DNA of 64,000 nt from contig JABCZH010000014.1 of assembly GCA_013289795.1 (NCBI GenBank), forward strand, positions 1 through 64,000, written 5' to 3'. A program made the position numbers and the translations under genes. This stretch comes from Acidobacteriota bacterium. GTDB taxonomy: Bacteria; Acidobacteriota; Terriglobia; Terriglobales; Acidobacteriaceae. Below the pieces are notes generated by a model. It searched no databases and had not been told where the DNA came from. It saw only the letters and a program-made list of their open reading frames with translations. The number at the start of each line of letters is the position of its first letter. Within the stretch, counting starts at the first letter, position 1. Below are positions 22,471 through 63,944 of the stretch, piece after piece.

Positions 22471-22499
22471 TTGACAAACCCCTGGCTGGGTGGGACAAT
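22471..22499 (+). promoter_or_regulatory. Candidate sigma-70-type promoter of the imu cassette
   Basis: TTGACA, a 17-base spacer and GACAAT lie about 80 bases before the imuA ATG. The -35 box is perfect and the -10 box matches at four of six positions. Confidence 0.55.
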
Positions 22500-22508
22500 T
22501 CTGTAGGC

Positions 22509-22523
22509 GAACAAAAAGAGAAT
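22509..22523 (+). promoter_or_regulatory. Possible LexA-type operator (GAAC-N7-GAAT)
   Basis: GAAC, seven bases and GAAT start 10 bases past the -10 box, where a repressor would cover the transcription start. It differs by one base from the GAAC-N7-GAAC direct repeat (GTTC-N7-GTTC on the other strand) known for alphaproteobacterial LexA. imu cassettes are normally SOS-controlled. The acidobacterial LexA site cannot be established from this window. Confidence 0.3.
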
Positions 22524-22580: not shown

Positions 22581-23462
22581 ATGTCGTCGATTCCGCTTTT
22601 TCCCACGGAGGCGGTGCGTCGTCCCGTGGCTTCGGTTGTCTCGAACTCACCGGCTCGGGTTTTCGAGCGCCTGGCTGCGTTACCCAAGCTGGCAGAGGTC
22701 ACTCCAGCTTCGCGGCTAACGGTGCGGCCTACGCCGGAGATGGTCTCGAGTGGAGTGCGCGAGATAGATGCTCTCACCGGCGGACTGCCGCGCGGCGGCC
22801 TGACCGAAGTTTGCGGACCAGTGTCTTCCGGACGCACCAGCTTGCTGCTGGCGGTGCTGGCGGCAGCCACCCAGCGCCAGGAAGCTTGCGCGCTGGTGGA
22901 TGTAAGCGATGCCTTCGATCCCGTGACAGCCGCACTGGCAGCCGTGAATTTTGAAAGCATGCTATGGGTGCGATGCAAGACAAATCCACCACAGAGACAC
23001 AGAGACACAGAGAAAACCAATCAGAAACATGAGGATCCCTATCGTTGTCGAATGGGACCTCCAGTTGAGCAGGCTCTGCGGGTCACCGATCTGCTTCTGC
23101 AAAGCGGCGGCTTCGGCCTGGTGATCATTGATCTGGGTGACGTGGCGCTGAAAGTTGCTCGCCGCATTCCGCTTACTTCCTGGTTCCGTTTTCAGCGGGC
23201 GATAGAGCACACGCCCACGGTGCTGTTCGTAGTCACGCAGGCACCCTGCGCACAGACCTGCGCTGCGCTGCTGTTGAAAGTGAAGGCAGCGAAAAAGCTT
23301 TCAGCCCTCAGCCCTCAGCTCTCAGTTTTAAAAACCCTGTCTCATGCAGAACTTCTGGATGGATTTCGTGTCGAGACTGAAATCCTGCGGTCGCGAATCC
23401 CACGCAAGCCGGCGCAATCTGCCACCGCCGCCTTTGTCACCAAAACCGTACGCGCCGGATGA
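22581..23462 (+). CDS. imuA: ImuA, RecA-like translesion synthesis accessory protein
   Basis: This protein of about 293 residues is in the SOS mutasome. It has a RecA/SulA-like core with a degenerate Walker A, GPVSSGRTS (Arg where RecA has Lys), VDVSDAFDP, the LLWVRC-like MLWVRC strand and LLLQSGGFGLVIIDLGDVAL. ImuA works with ImuB and DnaE2 in damage-induced mutagenesis. Two stretches look inserted. The first, about residues 134-160 after WVRC, derives from CACAGAGA repeats and a flanking piece. The second, about 240-250 (SALSPQLS), derives from TCAGCCCTCAGCC repeats. Both keep the frame open. GAGG lies seven bases before the ATG. Confidence 0.87.
   Translation: MSSIPLFPTEAVRRPVASVVSNSPARVFERLAALPKLAEVTPASRLTVRPTPEMVSSGVREIDALTGGLPRGGLTEVCGPVSSGRTSLLLAVLAAATQRQEACALVDVSDAFDPVTAALAAVNFESMLWVRCKTNPPQRHRDTEKTNQKHEDPYRCRMGPPVEQALRVTDLLLQSGGFGLVIIDLGDVALKVARRIPLTSWFRFQRAIEHTPTVLFVVTQAPCAQTCAALLLKVKAAKKLSALSPQLSVLKTLSHAELLDGFRVETEILRSRIPRKPAQSATAAFVTKTVRAG
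22986..23020. repeat. CCACAGAGACACAGAG repeat inside imuA
   Basis: Three tandem ACAGAG units lie within the imuA frame, exactly where the family has a short link between the WVRC strand and the next helix. The same family occurs between genes at 55501 and, in a CGCAGAG form, at 41501. Confidence 0.75.
23298..23326. repeat. TCAGCCCTCAGCCCTCAG repeat inside imuA
   Basis: Tandem TCAGCCC/TCAGCTC units encode the SALSPQLS peptide of ImuA. It is a variant of the TCAGCACTCAGCATTCAG family found between imuB and dnaE2 and at 34271. Confidence 0.65.
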
Positions 23463-23510
23463 AGGATTTCAATGACTCATAATTCAATTTCTTAATGAAT
23501 CAATTCTTCT

Positions 23511-25121
23511 ATGGCATTTGCTTGTATCTTCGTGCCGGATTTTCCCGTGGAGGCGCTCCTCCGCACTGAGCCCGGCTTGCGATCGCAGTCTCTCGCCGTG
23601 CTCGAGGGGAAACCTCCGTTGCAGAAAGTTTTCGCGGTAAACGAAAACGCTCGCTGCGCCGGCGTTACGCCGGGAATGACCAAGCTGCAAATCGAAGCCT
23701 GCAGCGGCCTGGCATTCCGCACTCGATCTGTACTTCAGGAAGCCGCCGCTCATGCTGCTCTGCTCGATTGTGCGCAGTCATTTTCGCCGCGGGTGGAAGA
23801 TGCCGCACCCGACACCATCGTTCTCGATCTTCTTGGCATGGAGTTGCTGTTCGGTGCCCTTCCTGAAATCGCCCGCAACATCGCTCACCGTGCCTTGGAC
23901 CTTGGACTCACCGCGAATGTCGCTGTAGCTGCCAATCCCGATACCGCCGTCATTGCAGCTTGCGGACTCCGTGGCGTAACCGTGATCCCGGAAGGAAAGG
24001 AGTCTGAACGCTTGGGAAATTTGCCGGTGGAACTCTTGGCCGCGGGAGTGCATGAATCCGAACAGCTTTTGGAAACACTGCATCGCTGGGGGATTCGTAA
24101 TCTGCGCGATTTGGCCGCGCTGCCAGACGTAGCTTTGAGCGAGCGCACGGGACAGCGCGGAGTATATTTGCAGAAACTGGCCCGGGGTGAGACTGTACGC
24201 ACCCTGGTTCCAGTTGACCCTCCGCTAGTGTTCGAGGAGGCCATCGAGCTGGAATATCCGCTAACTCTGCTGGAGCCTCTGGCGTTTTTGCTGAGTCAGT
24301 TATTGGATCGTCTGTGTTCCCGCCTGGCCGCGCGCGCCCTGGCAACCCAGGAATTACGGCTGGAACTCGAACTGGCCAGCGAATATCAAGAAGAAAGTGT
24401 GGGGACGGGCGACCCCGCCCGTCCAGTTCGAGCGCAAGCTCGGCAGCGCTTTCACCGCACCCTCCGTCTGCCCCTGCCCTTACTCGATTCCAAGACTTTC
24501 CTCAAACTGCTGCAACTCGATTTGAAGGCCCATCCGCCCGGCGCTCCCATCGTCAAAATTCATCTGGCGGCGGAACCGGTGCGGCCGCGGCCCGGGCAAA
24601 GCGGACTTTTTCTTCCACCATCGCCCGAACCAGAAAAGTTGGAGCTCACGCTGGCGCGAATCGCAGCCATCGTGGGAGAAGAGAAAGTCGGCTCCCTCGA
24701 AATCTTGGACACGCATCGCCCCCAGGGATTCCGCATGCAGCGTTTTACTGCCAACCATTCGTTTTCCTCCGTGTCGGAGCCTGCCCTGAGCGCAGCCGAA
24801 GGGTATCTCCGTGGTGAATTAACTGATGGTTCTGACGATCTGGTCACTGCGCTACGCATTTTCCGTCCCCCGGCCGCAGTCACAGTTACCCTGTGCGAGG
24901 GCAGGCCAACTTTTATTTCCTGCCCTAGGCAAAAAGAGACTCGTGGCGAAATCCTCTGGGCAGCCGGCCCCTGGCGTTCTTCGGGAGACTGGTGGGAGCA
25001 GGAAGGCTGGGCGCGCGATGAATGGGACATCGCGGTGCAGGAAGAGACCAGTATTGGGTTATATCGCCTGGTGCGAGATCTGCTGGACGGGCGCTGGTTG
25101 TTGGAAGGCACTTACGATTAA
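23511..25121 (+). CDS. imuB: ImuB, Y-family polymerase-like mutasome protein
   Basis: This 536-residue protein has an N-terminal palm region (FACIFVPDFPVEALL, about residues 3-17) in which the Y-family metal-binding Asp/Glu set is not kept, as expected for ImuB. Next come the helix-hairpin-helix thumb (HRWGIRNLRDLAALPDVALSER), a little-finger-like domain and a C-terminal ImuB domain (RIFRPPAAVTV through WDIAVQEETSIGLYRLVRDLLDGRWLLEGTYD). It is thought to bridge DnaE2, ImuA and the beta clamp. Two repeat-derived stretches lie in frame: a hairpin at about 297-312 and the peptide PALSAAEG at about 424-432. No clear ribosome binding site precedes the ATG, 48 bases after imuA. Confidence 0.88.
   Translation: MAFACIFVPDFPVEALLRTEPGLRSQSLAVLEGKPPLQKVFAVNENARCAGVTPGMTKLQIEACSGLAFRTRSVLQEAAAHAALLDCAQSFSPRVEDAAPDTIVLDLLGMELLFGALPEIARNIAHRALDLGLTANVAVAANPDTAVIAACGLRGVTVIPEGKESERLGNLPVELLAAGVHESEQLLETLHRWGIRNLRDLAALPDVALSERTGQRGVYLQKLARGETVRTLVPVDPPLVFEEAIELEYPLTLLEPLAFLLSQLLDRLCSRLAARALATQELRLELELASEYQEESVGTGDPARPVRAQARQRFHRTLRLPLPLLDSKTFLKLLQLDLKAHPPGAPIVKIHLAAEPVRPRPGQSGLFLPPSPEPEKLELTLARIAAIVGEEKVGSLEILDTHRPQGFRMQRFTANHSFSSVSEPALSAAEGYLRGELTDGSDDLVTALRIFRPPAAVTVTLCEGRPTFISCPRQKETRGEILWAAGPWRSSGDWWEQEGWARDEWDIAVQEETSIGLYRLVRDLLDGRWLLEGTYD
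24403..24442. repeat. Double hairpin repeat inside imuB
   Basis: GGACGGGC/GCCCGTCC (six-base loop) is followed by CGAGC/GCTCG around GCAA. Both are in frame and encode a Gly/Pro/Arg/Ala-rich linker. The hairpin at 4788 is similar in kind. Confidence 0.5.
24781..24803. repeat. CTGAGCGCAGCCGAAGG repeat inside imuB
   Basis: This short element encodes PALSAAEG in the ImuB frame. A related CCTGAGCGAGGCGAAGG element lies between genes at 62099. Confidence 0.6.
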
Positions 25122-25127
25122 AGCAAT

Positions 25128-25175
25128 CAGCACTCAGCATTCAGCACTCAGTGATTGGCTGAATGCTGAGTGCTG
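25128..25175. repeat. 18-bp perfect inverted repeat between imuB and dnaE2
   Basis: CAGCACTCAGCATTCAGC pairs without mismatch with GCTGAATGCTGAGTGCTG around a 12-base loop. It fills most of the 68-base gap between the imuB stop and the dnaE2 start and leaves no recognisable ribosome binding site for dnaE2. The hairpin could uncouple or attenuate translation (inference). Confidence 0.85.
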
Positions 25176-25189
25176 AAAGCTGTGCTGCA

Positions 25190-28100
25190 ATGTACATCGA
25201 ACTCCACTCCCGCTCTGCTTTTAGTTTTCTCGAAGGCGCTTCCCTGCCTGAAACTTTAATTGCCACCTGCGCCAACCTTAATATGCCGGCCATGGCGCTG
25301 CTCGACCGCGACGGCGTCTATGGCTCACCGCGTTTTCACATGGCTGCGAAGAAAACGGGACTGAAAGCGCATATTGGGGCGGATGTGACGGCGCAATCCC
25401 TGGGCCACGGATCTACACGGATTCACACGGATCAATTCCGCCTTCCACTTCTCGTCTCGTCCCGCGTTGGCTATCAGAACCTTTGCCGCTTGATCACCAA
25501 AATGAAACTGCGCGCGGCCAAGGGCGAAGGCACAGTCCATAAAGAAGAGCTGCAAGAACATGCGGAAGGACTGATCTGCCTCACCGGCGACCACCATGGC
25601 CCGCTGGCTCTCGCTCTGAAAAATGGTGGGATGGACGCCGCGCACAGTTGCATTGAGCATCTGACTGAAATCTTTGGTCGCACCAATGTTTACGTCGAAC
25701 TCCAGCGCCATTTTCATCGTGAGCAGGAGGCCCGCAATCGCGCTGCAATAGAAATTGCCCACTCGCTCCGGCTTCCATTACTTGCGACCAATGACGTCTG
25801 CTATGCCACCGTTCACGAGCGCGAACTGTGCGACGTTTTCACCGCTCTCCGCCACCATCGAACCTTGGCCAGCGCGGGACGTCTGCTGGCTCGCAACTCC
25901 GAACGTCACTTGAAATCGCCACAGGAGATGCAGGCGCTTTTTGCTGATCTGCCTGAGGCCCTCGCCAACACCGTGGAACTGTCTTCCCGCCTCGAGTTCA
26001 CTTTTAAAGATCTGGGATACGAATTCCCAAAATACCCTGTACCCGCAGGCGAGAGCATGTCGTCGTTCCTGGAAAAGCGCACCTGGGAGGGTTTTTACGA
26101 GCGTTACGGACGAGCCTCTGCCGACCTGCAAAACCGCGCCCGCCAGCAGATTGAGCGCGAATTGAAGCTGATCGAGAAGCTCGCTCTGGCCGGCTACTTC
26201 CTCATTGTCTGGGACCTGGTCCGCTACTGCCGGGACGAAAATATTCTGGTGCAAGGACGTGGTTCGGCCGCCAATAGTGCTGTCTGTTATTCGTTGGGAA
26301 TTACTGCTGTTGACGCCGTCGGCATGGAGTTGCTGTTCGAGCGTTTTCTTTCTGAGGAGCGTGGCGAATGGCCTGACATCGATCTCGATCTTCCCAGCGG
26401 CGACCAGCGCGAGCGCGTCATTCAATATTTGTACAAACGCTATGGCGAGCGCGGCGCGGCTATGACTGCCAACGTCATTACTTATCGCAGCCGTATGGCT
26501 GGCCGCGAAATGGGCAAGGCGCTGGGTTTTGATCCCGAAACCCTCGAGAAAGTTTCGGCTGCCGTCTCCACCTGGGAATATCGCGACCAGCACGACACTC
26601 TGGATCACCGCTTTCGTGACGCCGGCCTGGACCTGAATCATCCCCGGCTGCGCAAGTATTTCGAATTGTGTGTTGCGGTGCAGGATTTGCCGCGTCATCT
26701 CGGCCAGCATTCCGGCGGCATGGTGATCTGCCAGGGTCAGCTTGATTCCGTGGTCCCGCTCGAACCGGCTTCCATGCCCGGCCGCGTGGTAGTGCAGTGG
26801 GACAAGGAAGACTGCGCCGATCTCGGCATCATCAAAGTTGACCTGCTCGGCTTGGGCATGATGGCGGTGCTGGAGGATTCTTTGCAGTTGATTCAGGATC
26901 ATTATCGCGAGGAGGTGAACCTCGCTCATCTCCCAGCCGACGATCCTGTTGTTTACTCCACACTGCAGAAAGCTGACACCATCGGCATGTTCCAGATCGA
27001 GAGCCGGGCGCAGATGTCGTGCCTGCCACGCCTGCGTCCGCAGCGCTTTTACGACATTGTGGTGCAGGTCGCCATCATCCGTCCCGGCCCCATCGTCGGG
27101 CAGATGGTGAATCCTTATTTGCAGCGCCGCCAGGGACGCGAGGCCGTCACTTACCCGCATCCCTCGCTCGAACCCGTGCTTAAACGCACTCTCGGAGTAC
27201 CGCTTTTCCAGGAACAGTTGCTGCGCATCGCCATGGTGGCCGCCAACTTCAGCGGAGGCGAAGCTGAAGAACTGCGCCGCGCCATGGGATTCAAGCGTTC
27301 CCAGGCGCGCATGAAGGAAATCGAAGCCAGGCTGCGGACGGGCATGACCGAGAACGGCATCTCGCAGGAAGCGCAGGAGCAGACTGTTCTTTCCATTTCT
27401 TCATTTGCACTTTACGGATTTCCCGAGTCGCACGCCGCGAGCTTCGCTCTGATTGCCTATGCCAGCGCTTATCTGAAGTGCCACTATCTGGCCGCCTTCA
27501 CCGCAGCCTTGCTCAATAATCAGCCCATGGGTTTCTATCGTCCCGCCACGCTGGTGAAAGACGCGCAGCGCCACGGCTTGAAAGTCCTGCCGATTGATGT
27601 GATGAAGTCAGATTGGAGCTGTACACTGGAGCAATCAGCAATCAGCAATCAGCATTCAGCGGATTCGGTCGTTGGTCGTCGGTCGTTGGTCGTTGGCAAA
27701 ACCGGTCAGACGCCATCCCTCCGCCTCGGCCTGCGCTACGCCCGCGGATTACGGGAAGAAGCCGGGCAAGCCCTGGTTCGCCAGCGAGGCCTCGCGCCGT
27801 TCACTTCCATCCGCGATTTCATTCATCGTGTGCCCGAACTGCGCAAAGATGAACTGAATACGCTGGCTGAAATCGGCGCACTAAATTCGGTTTCTAGTTT
27901 CCAGTTTCCAGTTTCCAGCGAAGATCGAAAACAGGTTCCTCACTTCGCTCGGAATGACAAGACTGTTGAGAGTACGTCTAACCACTGGAAACTAGAAACT
28001 GGAAACTGGAAACTGCACCGAAGAGATGCTCTCTGGCAAGTCGAACGCGCTATCCGCCATTCCGGCCCGTTGCTTGACAGCCTTCCCGAGCCCGACGGGA

Positions 28101-28534
28101 AATCCCCGCTGCGTCCCATGAATGCCGAAGAGCGTTTGGTAGCCGACTTCCGCGGCACCGGCATGACCGTGGGCCCGCATCCCATGGCATATCACCGCAC
28201 AAGGATGACGGCCATGGGAATACAGCAAGCCAGCGACCTCAAGCAACTTCCCAGCGGACGTTACCTGCGCATCGGAGGATGCGTCATCGCCCGCCAGCGT
28301 CCCGGCACTGCGAAAGGATTCGTTTTCTTGAGTCTGGAAGATGAAACCGGAGTAGCCAACGCCATTGTCAATCCCGATTTATTTCAACAAAACCGTCTTT
28401 TGCTGAGTTCCGAACAATTTCTGATGGTGGAGGGAATCCTGCAAAATCAGGATAACGTGATTTCGGTGAAGGCCCAGCGCGTATCGCCACTCAACATCAC
28501 TCGCGCTCAAACCTCGTCGCATGATTTCTATTGA
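25190..28534 (+). CDS. dnaE2: DnaE2, error-prone C-family DNA polymerase III alpha subunit
   Basis: This protein of about 1114 residues is the catalytic polymerase of the ImuA-ImuB-DnaE2 mutasome. Its order is an N-terminal PHP domain (MYIELHSRSAFSFLEGASLPE), the C-family palm with QGRGSAANSAVCYSLGIT and the DIDLDLPSG metal motif, fingers (GLGMMAVLEDSLQ, TIGMFQIESRAQMS), HhH and an OB domain near the C-terminus (GRYLRIGGCVIARQRPGTAKGFVFLSLEDETG), ending SSHDFY. Three in-frame repeat-derived stretches are at about residues 71-82, 814-837 and 900-943, which explains the slightly long size. The start at 25190 fits the family N-terminus; the nine codons upstream are repeat sequence. Confidence 0.93.
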   Translation: MYIELHSRSAFSFLEGASLPETLIATCANLNMPAMALLDRDGVYGSPRFHMAAKKTGLKAHIGADVTAQSLGHGSTRIHTDQFRLPLLVSSRVGYQNLCRLITKMKLRAAKGEGTVHKEELQEHAEGLICLTGDHHGPLALALKNGGMDAAHSCIEHLTEIFGRTNVYVELQRHFHREQEARNRAAIEIAHSLRLPLLATNDVCYATVHERELCDVFTALRHHRTLASAGRLLARNSERHLKSPQEMQALFADLPEALANTVELSSRLEFTFKDLGYEFPKYPVPAGESMSSFLEKRTWEGFYERYGRASADLQNRARQQIERELKLIEKLALAGYFLIVWDLVRYCRDENILVQGRGSAANSAVCYSLGITAVDAVGMELLFERFLSEERGEWPDIDLDLPSGDQRERVIQYLYKRYGERGAAMTANVITYRSRMAGREMGKALGFDPETLEKVSAAVSTWEYRDQHDTLDHRFRDAGLDLNHPRLRKYFELCVAVQDLPRHLGQHSGGMVICQGQLDSVVPLEPASMPGRVVVQWDKEDCADLGIIKVDLLGLGMMAVLEDSLQLIQDHYREEVNLAHLPADDPVVYSTLQKADTIGMFQIESRAQMSCLPRLRPQRFYDIVVQVAIIRPGPIVGQMVNPYLQRRQGREAVTYPHPSLEPVLKRTLGVPLFQEQLLRIAMVAANFSGGEAEELRRAMGFKRSQARMKEIEARLRTGMTENGISQEAQEQTVLSISSFALYGFPESHAASFALIAYASAYLKCHYLAAFTAALLNNQPMGFYRPATLVKDAQRHGLKVLPIDVMKSDWSCTLEQSAISNQHSADSVVGRRSLVVGKTGQTPSLRLGLRYARGLREEAGQALVRQRGLAPFTSIRDFIHRVPELRKDELNTLAEIGALNSVSSFQFPVSSEDRKQVPHFARNDKTVESTSNHWKLETGNWKLHRRDALWQVERAIRHSGPLLDSLPEPDGKSPLRPMNAEERLVADFRGTGMTVGPHPMAYHRTRMTAMGIQQASDLKQLPSGRYLRIGGCVIARQRPGTAKGFVFLSLEDETGVANAIVNPDLFQQNRLLLSSEQFLMVEGILQNQDNVISVKAQRVSPLNITRAQTSSHDFY
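25405..25433. repeat. ACGGATCTACACGGATTCACACGGAT repeat inside dnaE2
   Basis: Three ACGGAT units spaced 9-10 bases apart encode part of a loop in the PHP domain (residues about 72-82). Homologs normally have only a short turn between the GA-D/E strand and the RLPLLV strand. Confidence 0.65.
27631..27697. repeat. Two tandem repeat families back to back inside dnaE2
   Basis: AATCAGC units (27633-27660) are followed by GGTCGTTGGTCGTCGG units (27667-27697), both within the open frame. They encode SAISNQHSA and then VVGRRSLVVG, just before the RLGLRYARGL helix conserved in DnaE2. The first family matches the intergenic hairpin at 25128. Confidence 0.8.
27891..28014. repeat. Composite inverted repeat inside dnaE2
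   Basis: A left arm of TTTCCAG units (27891-27918) and a right arm of CTGGAAA units (27985-28014) are complementary. Between them is a CCTCACTTCGCTCGGAATGACA element. About 43 codons are inserted between GALN and HRRDALWQVERA, with the frame intact. Confidence 0.85.
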
Positions 28535-28567
28535 TCAATGATCGATGATCGAATGATCGAAAATCAA
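28532..28567. repeat. GATCAATGATCGATGATC repeat at the dnaE2 stop
   Basis: Tandem GATCRATGATC units begin at the dnaE2 stop codon itself. A partial inverted copy (ATCATTGATC) lies about 90 bases downstream. A transcription end or processing role is possible. Confidence 0.6.
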
Positions 28568-62129: not shown

Positions 62130-63944
62130 TCAAATTTCGGTCTTCAATATTGGAATCTGATCAGCCAGCGTGCACTGCTTGGGATCTTTGTCTTCCCGCA
62201 ACCCCATAAACACCGGTGCGCGCAATTTCATACCACCCTCTACGGTTTCGTGTGTCCACTCCGTGAACTTGATTTCCGCAACCCGCTGGGGCTTTACCCA
62301 ATGCGCATTTGCAGCCTCCACGGTCCCATAAAAGGGCGAGCGCTTCGTCTCCAAAGGCTTGAGTATCTGCCAGATGCCTTTCAGTGTGGCCTGGGTGAAA
62401 CCAGTCCCCGCCTGACCTACATGAATCAACTGACCGTGTTCGTTGTACAGACCCAGCACGACCGATCCAAAGTACTCCCGGCTGCCCTCGGGATCGGTGT
62501 AGCCCCCAATCACACAATCGACCGTTTGCGTAATCTTGATCTTCAGCCAATCTCTGCTGCGGCGTTCTTCGTAGAGACTACCGCGCCGCTTGGCGAGAAT
62601 GCCCTCCAGCCCTTGTTGCTTGGCGGCTTCAAACAGTGCAATGCCGCGTTCGGGGAAGTGCTCGGAATGGCGAACAAATTCATTGGCGCCGACGATCCGA
62701 ACCAGGGCCTGCTTCCGCTCCTCGAGCGCAACCCGCCGCACGTCGTATCCGTCGGCATAGAGTAGATCGAAGATGTAATACACCACCGGCACATCCAGAC
62801 GAGCGGCCGCCCGCCGGCCACCGCTGCGAATTCCGGTACGTTGTTGCATTAGACTGAACGAAGCGCGGCCTTGCTCGTCGAGGGCTGCGATCTCGCCGTC
62901 AAGGATCGCGTTCTTGGCCTTCACCAATTTCGGAAGATCATGTAGGTCGGAGTATTGGCCAGTAAGATCGTTCTGATTGCGGGAAACCAGCCGGACCTTC
63001 CCGTTTTCAATGAACGCCACCGCTCGATATCCATCCCACTTGATCTCAAAAAACCATTCGGGATCGTCGAAAGGCTTTTCCACCGGCGTGGCCAGCATCG
63101 GCGTGATCGCAGCTGGCATGGGCCGCTTCACCGCGCCAGGCAAAGACTTAGCCACAGGGAGCACAGAGATCACAGGGGAGGGCGAAGGCCTTCTCTTCGT
63201 CTTTCCTCTGTGCTCCTCTGTGCCCCCTGTGGTGAGCGGTTTTGTTTTTTTCTTATCCAACTTGGCCAGCGTCTCCGCCAGCCACGGAGCTGTTACTTTT
63301 CCCCGAGACGCCGGACGGCTGCTCTTCCACTCGGCGGAGTCTTTGTCGCCTGCGATCTGTGCGATCGTCTTGTGGCTGAGTACTGATGTGTCATAGGCCT
63401 CGATGTCATAACCCTCGACCGCTTCATCGTCCTTCTTCTTGATCAACAGCCATTCCGTTCCCTTGCTTCCCGGACGCCGCCCTTTGATGTGAATCAGCGC
63501 AAAGTCGCCCTTCAAACGTTGGCCGTGCAACCGGAACTTGAAATCACCCTTCTGCAACATCTCCCGGGCTTCGGCCGCGGTTCCAGGAACGAATTTTCCC
63601 TTCACTGGTTGCGGTGAAAGCGGCTCCCATGTCCCCACATCCCACACGATGACCGCTCCCGCGCCGTAGTTACCTTCTGGAATTGTGCCTTCAAAATCAA
63701 AATAAGAAACTGGATGGTCTTCCACCTGCATCGCCAGGCGCTTATCGGCGGGATCAAGCGACGGCCCTTTGGGCACCGCCCATGATTTCAGCACCCCGTC
63801 CATTTCCAAGCGAAAGTCGTAGTGCAACCGAGTAGCATCGTGCTTCTGCACCACAAAACGATGCCCGGATTTCTTTTCAACCTTCGGCGGCGGCTCCGGA
63901 GTATCCTCGAAGCGGCGCTTGCGTTTGTATTCTTCTAAGGCCAT
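62130..63944 (-). CDS. ligD: LigD-type ATP-dependent DNA ligase (phosphoesterase plus ligase)
   Basis: This 604-residue enzyme serves non-homologous end joining. The N-terminal 3'-phosphoesterase domain (about 28-180) has [18 protein letters not shown], with the His/Asp/Arg metal set, and [12 protein letters not shown]. The nucleotidyltransferase domain has Lys302 in EIKWDGYRA as the AMP acceptor, and the downstream [13 protein letters not shown] and LAKRRGS motifs. A C-terminal OB fold follows. The primase/polymerase domain of full LigD is absent, and no ku gene is in view. Residues about 236-266, between the two domains, derive from an in-frame CACAGAG-type inverted repeat. Confidence 0.92.
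63150..63233. repeat. CCACAGGGAGCACAGAG inverted repeat inside ligD
   Basis: Arms 63150-63178 and 63205-63233 (CCTCTGTGCTCCTCTGTG...) are complementary. It lies in the interdomain linker of LigD, and the frame stays open. Same family as 22986 and 55501. Confidence 0.8.

Follow-up and report, generated by a model that had tools for sequence, protein, structure and literature searches.

Short dispersed repeats lie in frame at a few fixed loops of the ImuA-ImuB-DnaE2 mutasome genes in an acidobacterial family

The genes of the error-prone ImuA-ImuB-DnaE2 mutasome lie side by side at positions 22581-28534 of a 64,000-nucleotide stretch of DNA (hereafter the window) from an Acidobacteriota bacterium of the family Acidobacteriaceae (GenBank assembly GCA_013289795.1, contig JABCZH010000014.1, positions 1 to 64,000). 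All three genes carry in-frame inserts that copy small dispersed repeats of the same genome, for the most part hairpins with tandem-heptamer arms. The finding is not confined to one genome but holds for a large part of one family, with a few cases elsewhere, and arrays of different species share places in the proteins: three in DnaE2, about three in ImuB and two in ImuA. Such repeats are nearly absent from other genes. An original prediction, made from the letters of the window, had proposed that repeats cluster in these error-prone replication genes; the clustering is real, and larger than was reported there. Of the explanations weighed below we favour gene-specific retention, to which we give a probability of about one half: hairpin repeats would enter many genes and would be kept in the mutasome by near-neutrality together with fluctuating selection on mutation rate.

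The three genes run on the forward strand in the order imuA, imuB, dnaE2. The last of them (25190..28534 with its stop codon, 25190-28531 without) encodes an error-prone DNA polymerase of 1114 residues that scores 1212 bits against NCBIfam NF004225 (cut-off 939), and with the adjacent ImuB and ImuA it forms an ImuA-ImuB-DnaE2 mutasome. The Y-family-like protein ImuB (536 residues; 23511..25121 with stop, 23511-25118 without) is recognized by Pfam IMS (PF00817, E 4e-17). ImuA, a RecA-like mutasome accessory protein of 293 residues (22581..23462 with stop, 22581-23459 without), is assigned from Pfam RecA (PF00154, E 1.6e-14) and from its place before imuB and dnaE2; its NCBIfam ImuA_translesion score of 37 bits lies under that model's cut-off of 150.

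All seven repeat stretches that had been predicted inside these genes are present, they belong to several families and they lie in frame. Synonymous shuffles of imuA, imuB and dnaE2 yield on average 0.25 arrays and never more than one, and the seven observed are therefore not chance. Matches to the inserts were sought in a sample of the same genome (G000; 4.67 Mb, the window being its contig C14) that comprises 62 stretches including the window, 1.282 Mb or 27% of the genome, and 976 genes called with a home-made caller; arrays were located with Tandem Repeats Finder (TRF) at score thresholds of 36 to 45, and the sets of periods vary between analyses. The most elaborate insert occupies the third of three DnaE2 sites (S3; 27890..28015, residues 901-942) and consists of a GTTTCCA array of 4.1 units (27890-27918), a CACTTCGCTCGGAATGACA centre and an inverted ACTGGAA array of 4.6 units (27984-28015), the two arms pairing in the predicted fold; ten of the 13 sample matches to its repeat (27891) are intergenic. 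The S2 insert (27630..27696, residues 814-836) joins AGCAATC, 4.4 units (27630-27660), to GGTCGTT, 4.3 units (27667-27696), and 18 of 21 sample matches to its repeat at 27631 likewise lie between genes. At S1, a CACGGATCCA array, a 10-mer in 2.8 copies, covers 25406..25433 (residues 73-82).

The inserts of the two smaller genes are slighter. The second imuA insert (23299..23325, residues ~241-249) is a TCAGCCC array of 3.6 units (23301-23325) with nine intergenic matches in the sample, and it falls in a site shared with other species (235-249). The first (22988..23019, residues ~137-145), a CACAGAGA array of three units at 22990-23013, lies where other species have other arrays (ImuA 133-159), and its family (22986) is the weakest case, with three sample matches including itself against one for a reversed control. 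Both imuB inserts also belong to the weaker cases. A palindromic GGGACGGGCGACCCCGCCCGTCC element (24402-24424), which starts at residue 298 and is followed by a second small hairpin, recognized by its fold, makes up the first (24402..24446; shared site 290-315); it is its own only match in the 27% sample and has five matches genome-wide, itself included, at up to three mismatches (reversed control 0). The second (24780..24803, about residue 426; shared site 411-443) is a CCTGCCCTGAGCGCAGCCGAAGG repeat of a dispersed family, with one other match in the sample and, for 24786-24802, 14 genome-wide matches including itself at up to one mismatch (reversed control 1). Two further stretches had been placed at gene borders, and both exist. 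Between imuB and dnaE2 lies a hairpin of two inverted AGCACTC-type arrays (25122..25182, forward strand; predicted fold of 25119-25190, -39.8 kcal/mol), 13 of whose 16 sample matches, itself included, are intergenic. The first unit of the array at 28532..28561 (forward strand) supplies the TGA stop of dnaE2, and no second copy of it occurs in the sampled 27% of the genome.

How special these genes are can be judged from the whole sample, where at period 7 or 14 and a score of at least 45 we counted 30 intergenic arrays, three at gene edges and four within genes, all four in dnaE2. With periods 7, 8, 10, 11, 13 and 14 and a score of at least 40, twelve arrays fall within genes, seven of them in imuA and dnaE2; four of the other five look like chance and one lies in ligD. 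Common intergenic 13-mers recur in ten of the 976 genes, most heavily in the gene for RNase R and then in dnaE2, and six further genes hold a single piece of 13-17 bases. Exclusivity to the mutasome genes is therefore not absolute: copies elsewhere in the sample are mostly intergenic, as the original prediction had said of the rest of the window, with ligD, the RNase R gene and the six genes with a single piece as a qualification.

A wider census, of 345 sequences (4.33 Mb) from this and related genomes, sharpens the contrast. At period 7 or 14, a length of at least 24 bp and a score of at least 45, there are 55 arrays in dnaE2, 13 in imuB, 10 in imuA and one in recN, with 94 in intergenic DNA and 12 at gene edges, and none in 2469 other genes, 16 dnaE1 or 25 ligD-like genes; arrays were deduplicated by sequence and genes only if identical, so that these denominators may include cut copies of one gene, and the other genes come mostly from the genome under study. 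At scores of 40-44, six arrays appear in other genes, with units of 13-14 bases in 1.9-2.8 copies, and were judged by eye to be chance. Accordingly, neither the other genes of the sample nor the 2469 of the census reach the repeat density of the mutasome, a comparison that the original prediction had called for. Among relatives, one genome per species, the search covered the genome under study and 60 related ones, found a dnaE2-like match in 40 relatives and took cassettes from 35, leaving out those of G045, G046, G049, G057 and G060. With the broader set of periods and a score of at least 40, these cassettes hold 56 arrays in 15 of 35 dnaE2, 17 in 9 of 31 imuB and 5 in 4 of 17 imuA, although in order-level relatives (L085, L087, L089) chance may explain some of the GC-rich arrays counted in mutasome genes; 259 other genes hold five, and four dnaE1 none. 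Arrays per kilobase of mutasome and of intergenic DNA number 0.86 and 0.193 in G000 (p 0.007), 1.41 and 0.349 in G018 (p 0.0025), and 0.68 and 0.564 in G025 (p 0.47); G018 and G025 had been picked because they are invaded. Arrays of the AGTTNCN type are also commoner genome-wide in the 15 family genomes with mutasome arrays than in the 13 without (Mann-Whitney p 0.0008, the mutasome's own arrays being counted).

The sites are best resolved in DnaE2. We assembled 116 loci, namely our own, those of the 35 relatives and 80 named loci, which after removal of four duplicates and one row cut by a contig end left 111 distinct proteins. The search for the named loci used one peptide pattern, WKLETGNW, which derives from the S3 repeat and may have tilted it towards loci with arrays (the search that gave the 40 relatives did not use it); ranking these loci by similarity also gave an advantage to intact genes. 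Ninety-six of 102 arrays fall within S1 (residues 66-86), S2 (812-845) or S3 (899-943), together 100 of the 1114 residues of our DnaE2. Arrays at these sites occur in 28 of the 111 proteins, in 12 at S1, 25 at S2 and 22 at S3. With an array the loop has a median length of 41 residues at S1, 36 at S2 and 36.5 at S3, and without one 15, 13 and 9, which bears out the expectation that inserts sit where homologs have short loops. The sequences, by contrast with the sites, turn over: units differ in nearly every carrier, and S3 alone has 18 different units among 22 carriers, so that a conserved peptide at S3 was set aside. The two arms change together (AGTTTCC/GGAAACT, AGTACCG/CGGTACT and AGTTGCC/GGCAACT at S3). 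On the DnaE2 tree, which was built with FastTree only, array presence changes 10, 17 and 14 times for S1, S2 and S3, counts by parsimony that do not separate gain from loss. Had relatives carried the same peptides without repeat-like DNA, the original prediction would have been contradicted; relatives instead have repeat-like DNA at the same sites, with different peptides.

Most carriers (24 of 28) belong to one clade of 67 rows. The remainder are L150 and L136, whose titles name Blastocatellia and Pyrinomonadaceae respectively, together with L085 and L144. Inverted GTCCAAA arrays are clear in S1 of L150, with similar ones in its S3; the sole array of L085 is GC-rich and may be chance. A long element fills S3 of L125 and is missing from the empty S3 of its near relative L126; S1 of L125 has a CCTTCGGCTGCGCTCAGG-type element nested inside a CACAGAG array. 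Considered as miniature inverted-repeat transposable elements (MITEs), the repeats have the inverted arms, and the target-site duplication sought in the L125/L126 pair amounts to an ambiguous AAAT on both sides and nothing more. In G055, which belongs to a different family in the class, a match to an AGTTTCG array (G055:C6:60565-60584) lies, judged by match place only, in a second DnaE-like gene of 37% identity near the S1 position; four places in that genome match the heptamer pattern.

Anatomically, the arrays tend to come as arms. Neighbouring arrays are inverted and complementary in 21 of 37 pairs and direct in one; random pairs give 36 and 28 of 581. An array typically counts 4-5 units, as in 95 of 99 cases in the mutasome and in 117 of 135 between genes. 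They were not identified with repetitive extragenic palindromic (REP) elements, a candidate rejected from their tags, since GTAG/CTAC lies within 12 bp of 5 and CGTC/GACG of 17 of 99 arrays and random places give 7.8% and 17.5% (n=990). Seven being one modulo three, a heptamer array encodes a single cycle of seven residues whichever frame is read, and a stop-free array is therefore a harmless linker in any phase, provided that the insert as a whole has a length divisible by three. In the mutasome, 26 of 99 arrays contain a stop in some frame on the coding strand, against 52 of 99 on the other strand; the intergenic figures are 72 and 81 of 135.

The reading frames are kept. Among the 116 dnaE2 loci, 112 are whole in one frame, three run into a contig end (two of them, L137 and L193, among the 111 proteins) and one is frameshifted; no carrier of an array, of the 28, has a broken frame. 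The frameshifted locus, L084 (from G036, a draft that is 76% complete), breaks near our residue 1000, outside the three sites, and has no array. Reading the inserts as introns, inteins or bypassed segments was set aside, because the frame is open through every insert, which none of these would need. An AlphaFold model of our DnaE2, built with 30 aligned sequences, has a mean predicted local distance difference test score (pLDDT) of 76.6, with values below 50 at 74-79, 389-391, 427-431, 503-508, 818-838, 904-940 and 1107-1114; the three inserts are thus among the parts predicted to be least ordered, the thin alignment there lowering pLDDT in part. At the level of RNA, the predicted fold of the S3 insert (-55.9 kcal/mol) makes it neither an outstanding structure nor an exceptional barrier, other 136-base windows of dnaE2 reaching -53.2 with a median of -40.0, and both imuA inserts hardly fold.

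Upstream of imuA, on the forward strand (22471..22522), hexamers read by eye, TTGACA (22471-22476) and, 17 bases on, GACAAT (22494-22499), resemble a promoter and are followed by a LexA-like box, GCGAA-N6-GAGAA (22507-22522). A motif TTCGC-N6-TTCGC, derived from lexA promoters, 11 of 13 of which have it exactly, occurs exactly upstream of imuA in 35 of 48 cases and with at most one mismatch in 41 of 48, our own copy having one mismatch, and exactly in 77 of 2708 upstream regions in all. This motif conservation makes imuA-imuB-dnaE2 a candidate for LexA control. The gene dnaE2 is missing from six genomes of the same family with at least 96% completeness and looks dispensable. It is not a decaying gene, because the DnaE2 core is conserved almost as well as DnaE1 (mean identity to our own proteins 74.9 and 81.3%, over the best matched stretches in 15 genomes).

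A few other genes hold comparable repeats. In ligD (62133-63944, reverse strand), a 10-mer array, TCCTCTGTGC, of CACAGAG type and with an inverted partner nearby, lies at 63204..63231 in the linker that joins the phosphoesterase domain to the ligase domain. Several relatives show a break in the protein match at roughly this linker, and G006 and G013 each have one TGA within their ligD match. The RNase R gene of our genome (L203:17417-19933, assigned by Pfam) has two in-frame clusters of CCTGTGCCCTCTGTGGTTAA-type repeats. In recN, period-7 arrays lie within the gene in 2 of 16 genomes, and a third array lies at its 3' edge in G003; the two internal ones, in G018 and G025 (L247:2899-2927 and L252:1804-1835, two at score 40), differ in their heptamers and share one place just before the Walker B motif. 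Upstream of recN no exact LexA-like box was found in 17 rows, and among 15 lexA loci the 13 genes that were called contain no array, for which reasons SOS transcription as the common factor was set aside; heptamer arrays do lie within 10 bases of called lexA in four relatives (L346:1471-1493, L349:1462-1492, L351:1408-1498, with 13 units, and L357:1463-1493). Nor are DNA repair genes hosts in general, given that 30 uvrA loci yield no period-7 array and just one two-copy 11-mer (L310), 16 dnaE1 no array and 25 ligD no heptamers. Production of the arrays by DnaE2 itself was set aside as well, since G029 and G007, which have no match as strong as the dnaE2 of the other family members, hold 44 and 7 heptamer pattern matches; six other such genomes hold none.

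Under gene-specific retention, repeats would reach any gene by rare ectopic events, and selection would purge the inserts almost everywhere outside the mutasome. The mutasome would be rarely used, such that a moderate change of its activity would be nearly neutral, or sometimes favoured when selection on mutation rate fluctuates, and inserts would be kept. The cassette would in this way have been entered many times at fixed loops, the inserts being translated as disordered linkers, and a loop already holding a repeat may present a wider target for nested insertions and for exchange against related repeats. Several observations weigh against this. Mere tolerance predicts at most equality with intergenic DNA, yet mutasome density exceeds it in G000 and G018, though hardly in G025. 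Many non-essential genes should be equally tolerant and yet carry no arrays; a few repeats sit in recN, ligD and the RNase R gene as well, none of which is a rarely used mutagenic gene; and G021 (cassette L072) has 58 heptamer pattern matches genome-wide with no array in its mutasome genes, in contrast to G010 and G018. High tolerance had been among the three causes originally proposed, beside preferential landing and a possible tuning of the mutasome by the added linkers; an array density at or above the intergenic level in three genomes, together with a DnaE2 core conserved almost to the degree of DnaE1, makes tolerance alone uncomfortable. A purely neutral version, in which the loops are among the few wholly free insertion sites of the proteome and mutation rate is under no selection, agrees with the position of the inserts in predicted disordered loops and with units, hence peptides, that change from carrier to carrier. 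We hold it to be doubtful, because the 2469 other genes, which surely have many loops, hold no array, because dnaE1, of the same fold, is empty, and because mutasome density is not below that of intergenic DNA.

Preferential insertion or copying of repeats into the SOS mutasome locus, through damage-induced synthesis or strong SOS transcription and with only in-frame loop insertions surviving, agrees with the high mutasome densities, with the LexA-like box upstream of most imuA genes and with loops that carry many times the intergenic array density per base. Landing of this kind, another of the causes originally proposed, should leave many broken alleles, given that the tolerated loops make up 9% of dnaE2 and that insert lengths must be multiples of three. 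Nearly all dnaE2 loci are whole (in a set whose ranking favours intact genes) and the sole frameshift is unconnected with an array; that no array-carrying dnaE2 is broken, although the gene is absent from six near-complete genomes of the family, disfavours special landing, as do the arrays of recN, which has no exact box, and their absence from called lexA. We consider it unlikely. Rather improbable, in our judgement, is a tunable or self-limiting mutator, in which slippage by one unit switches the mutasome off, or hairpins slow its translation, so that mutation rate becomes evolvable. Gain or loss of one 7-base unit would indeed shift the frame, and several arrays lie in one gene; repeats in Salmonella mismatch-repair genes act as mutability switches (PMC2955026), and REP insertions in repair genes have been proposed as contributors to mutator states (PMC3733652). 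The off allele of a phase-variable contingency locus is nevertheless found in no carrier, the arrays are short, imperfect and of the typical intergenic size, and the predicted S3 and imuA folds are unexceptional. The boldest extension, that the mutasome is under recurrent selection for slippage-prone, hairpin-forming heptamer arrays as a built-in, fast-evolving brake or switch, with mutation rate set by captured repeats and sites reused independently in distant lineages, strikes us as decidedly improbable. An artefact of assembly or gene calling in metagenome bins is scarcely credible: most named loci are metagenome-assembled genomes by title and repeats can misassemble, but the same sites recur across numerous bins from separate projects and no carrier has lost the frame, where misjoined repeats would break frames.

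Short repeats with some of these properties are known from other bacteria. In cyanobacteria, short tandemly repeated repetitive (STRR) sequences are short tandem heptamer repeats that lie mainly between genes, as do the dispersed tandem heptamers counted in our own sample, and GGGAATC in Xanthomonas and TAACTGA in Beggiatoaceae are reportedly dispersed tandem heptamers as well. Rickettsia palindromic elements are spread over varied genes, and differ from the present inserts in sequence and host. Tandem heptamers dispersed mainly between genes have been described for bacteria with no reported concentration in one gene set (PMC4692102), and the Rickettsia elements are palindromic repeats in frame within functional proteins (PMC3733652). 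The closest parallel is with intragenic REP elements of the GTAG and CGTC superfamilies, short palindromic genome repeats that lie inside many replication and repair genes including DnaE2, are in some species found in these genes alone, and have been linked to mutators (PMC3733652). The arms in our case are heptamer arrays with no enrichment of GTAG or CGTC beside them, imuA and imuB are also hit, and insertions recur at the same sites, whereas that report has a shared site for recB of two Xanthomonas species and otherwise different ones (PMC3733652). The P6b stem of a Nostoc tRNA-Leu intron resembles the loops in having complementary heptanucleotide repeats, one sequence class of which has repeatedly given way to another at a fixed position (PMC4476775); there the host is a tRNA intron with two repeat classes, here the inserts are translated and of many classes. 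Tandem repeats in mismatch repair genes switch by copy number between functional and defective alleles (PMC2955026), and are like ours in lying in a gene that affects mutation rate and unlike them in having an off allele. Among the papers listed by a search that left subscription literature largely outside, none dealt, by title or abstract opening, with heptamer arrays in mutasome genes. The preference of REP elements for repair genes including DnaE2 has already been published (PMC3733652), and the heptamer class, the fixed sites and the turnover appear to be new.

One small gene set, that of an inducible error-prone polymerase, gathers in-frame repeats in many species of these soil bacteria at the same loops, and almost no other examined gene does. 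The REP observations, made in other phyla and with another class of repeat, point the same way (PMC3733652). This touches the old question of whether selection acting on individual loci shapes the mutation rate, and the filled and empty loops of near relatives are ready-made alleles for measuring the effect of an insert on damage-induced mutagenesis. In-frame repeats at a few loops of the error-prone copying machine hint that the mutation machinery is itself repeatedly remodelled.

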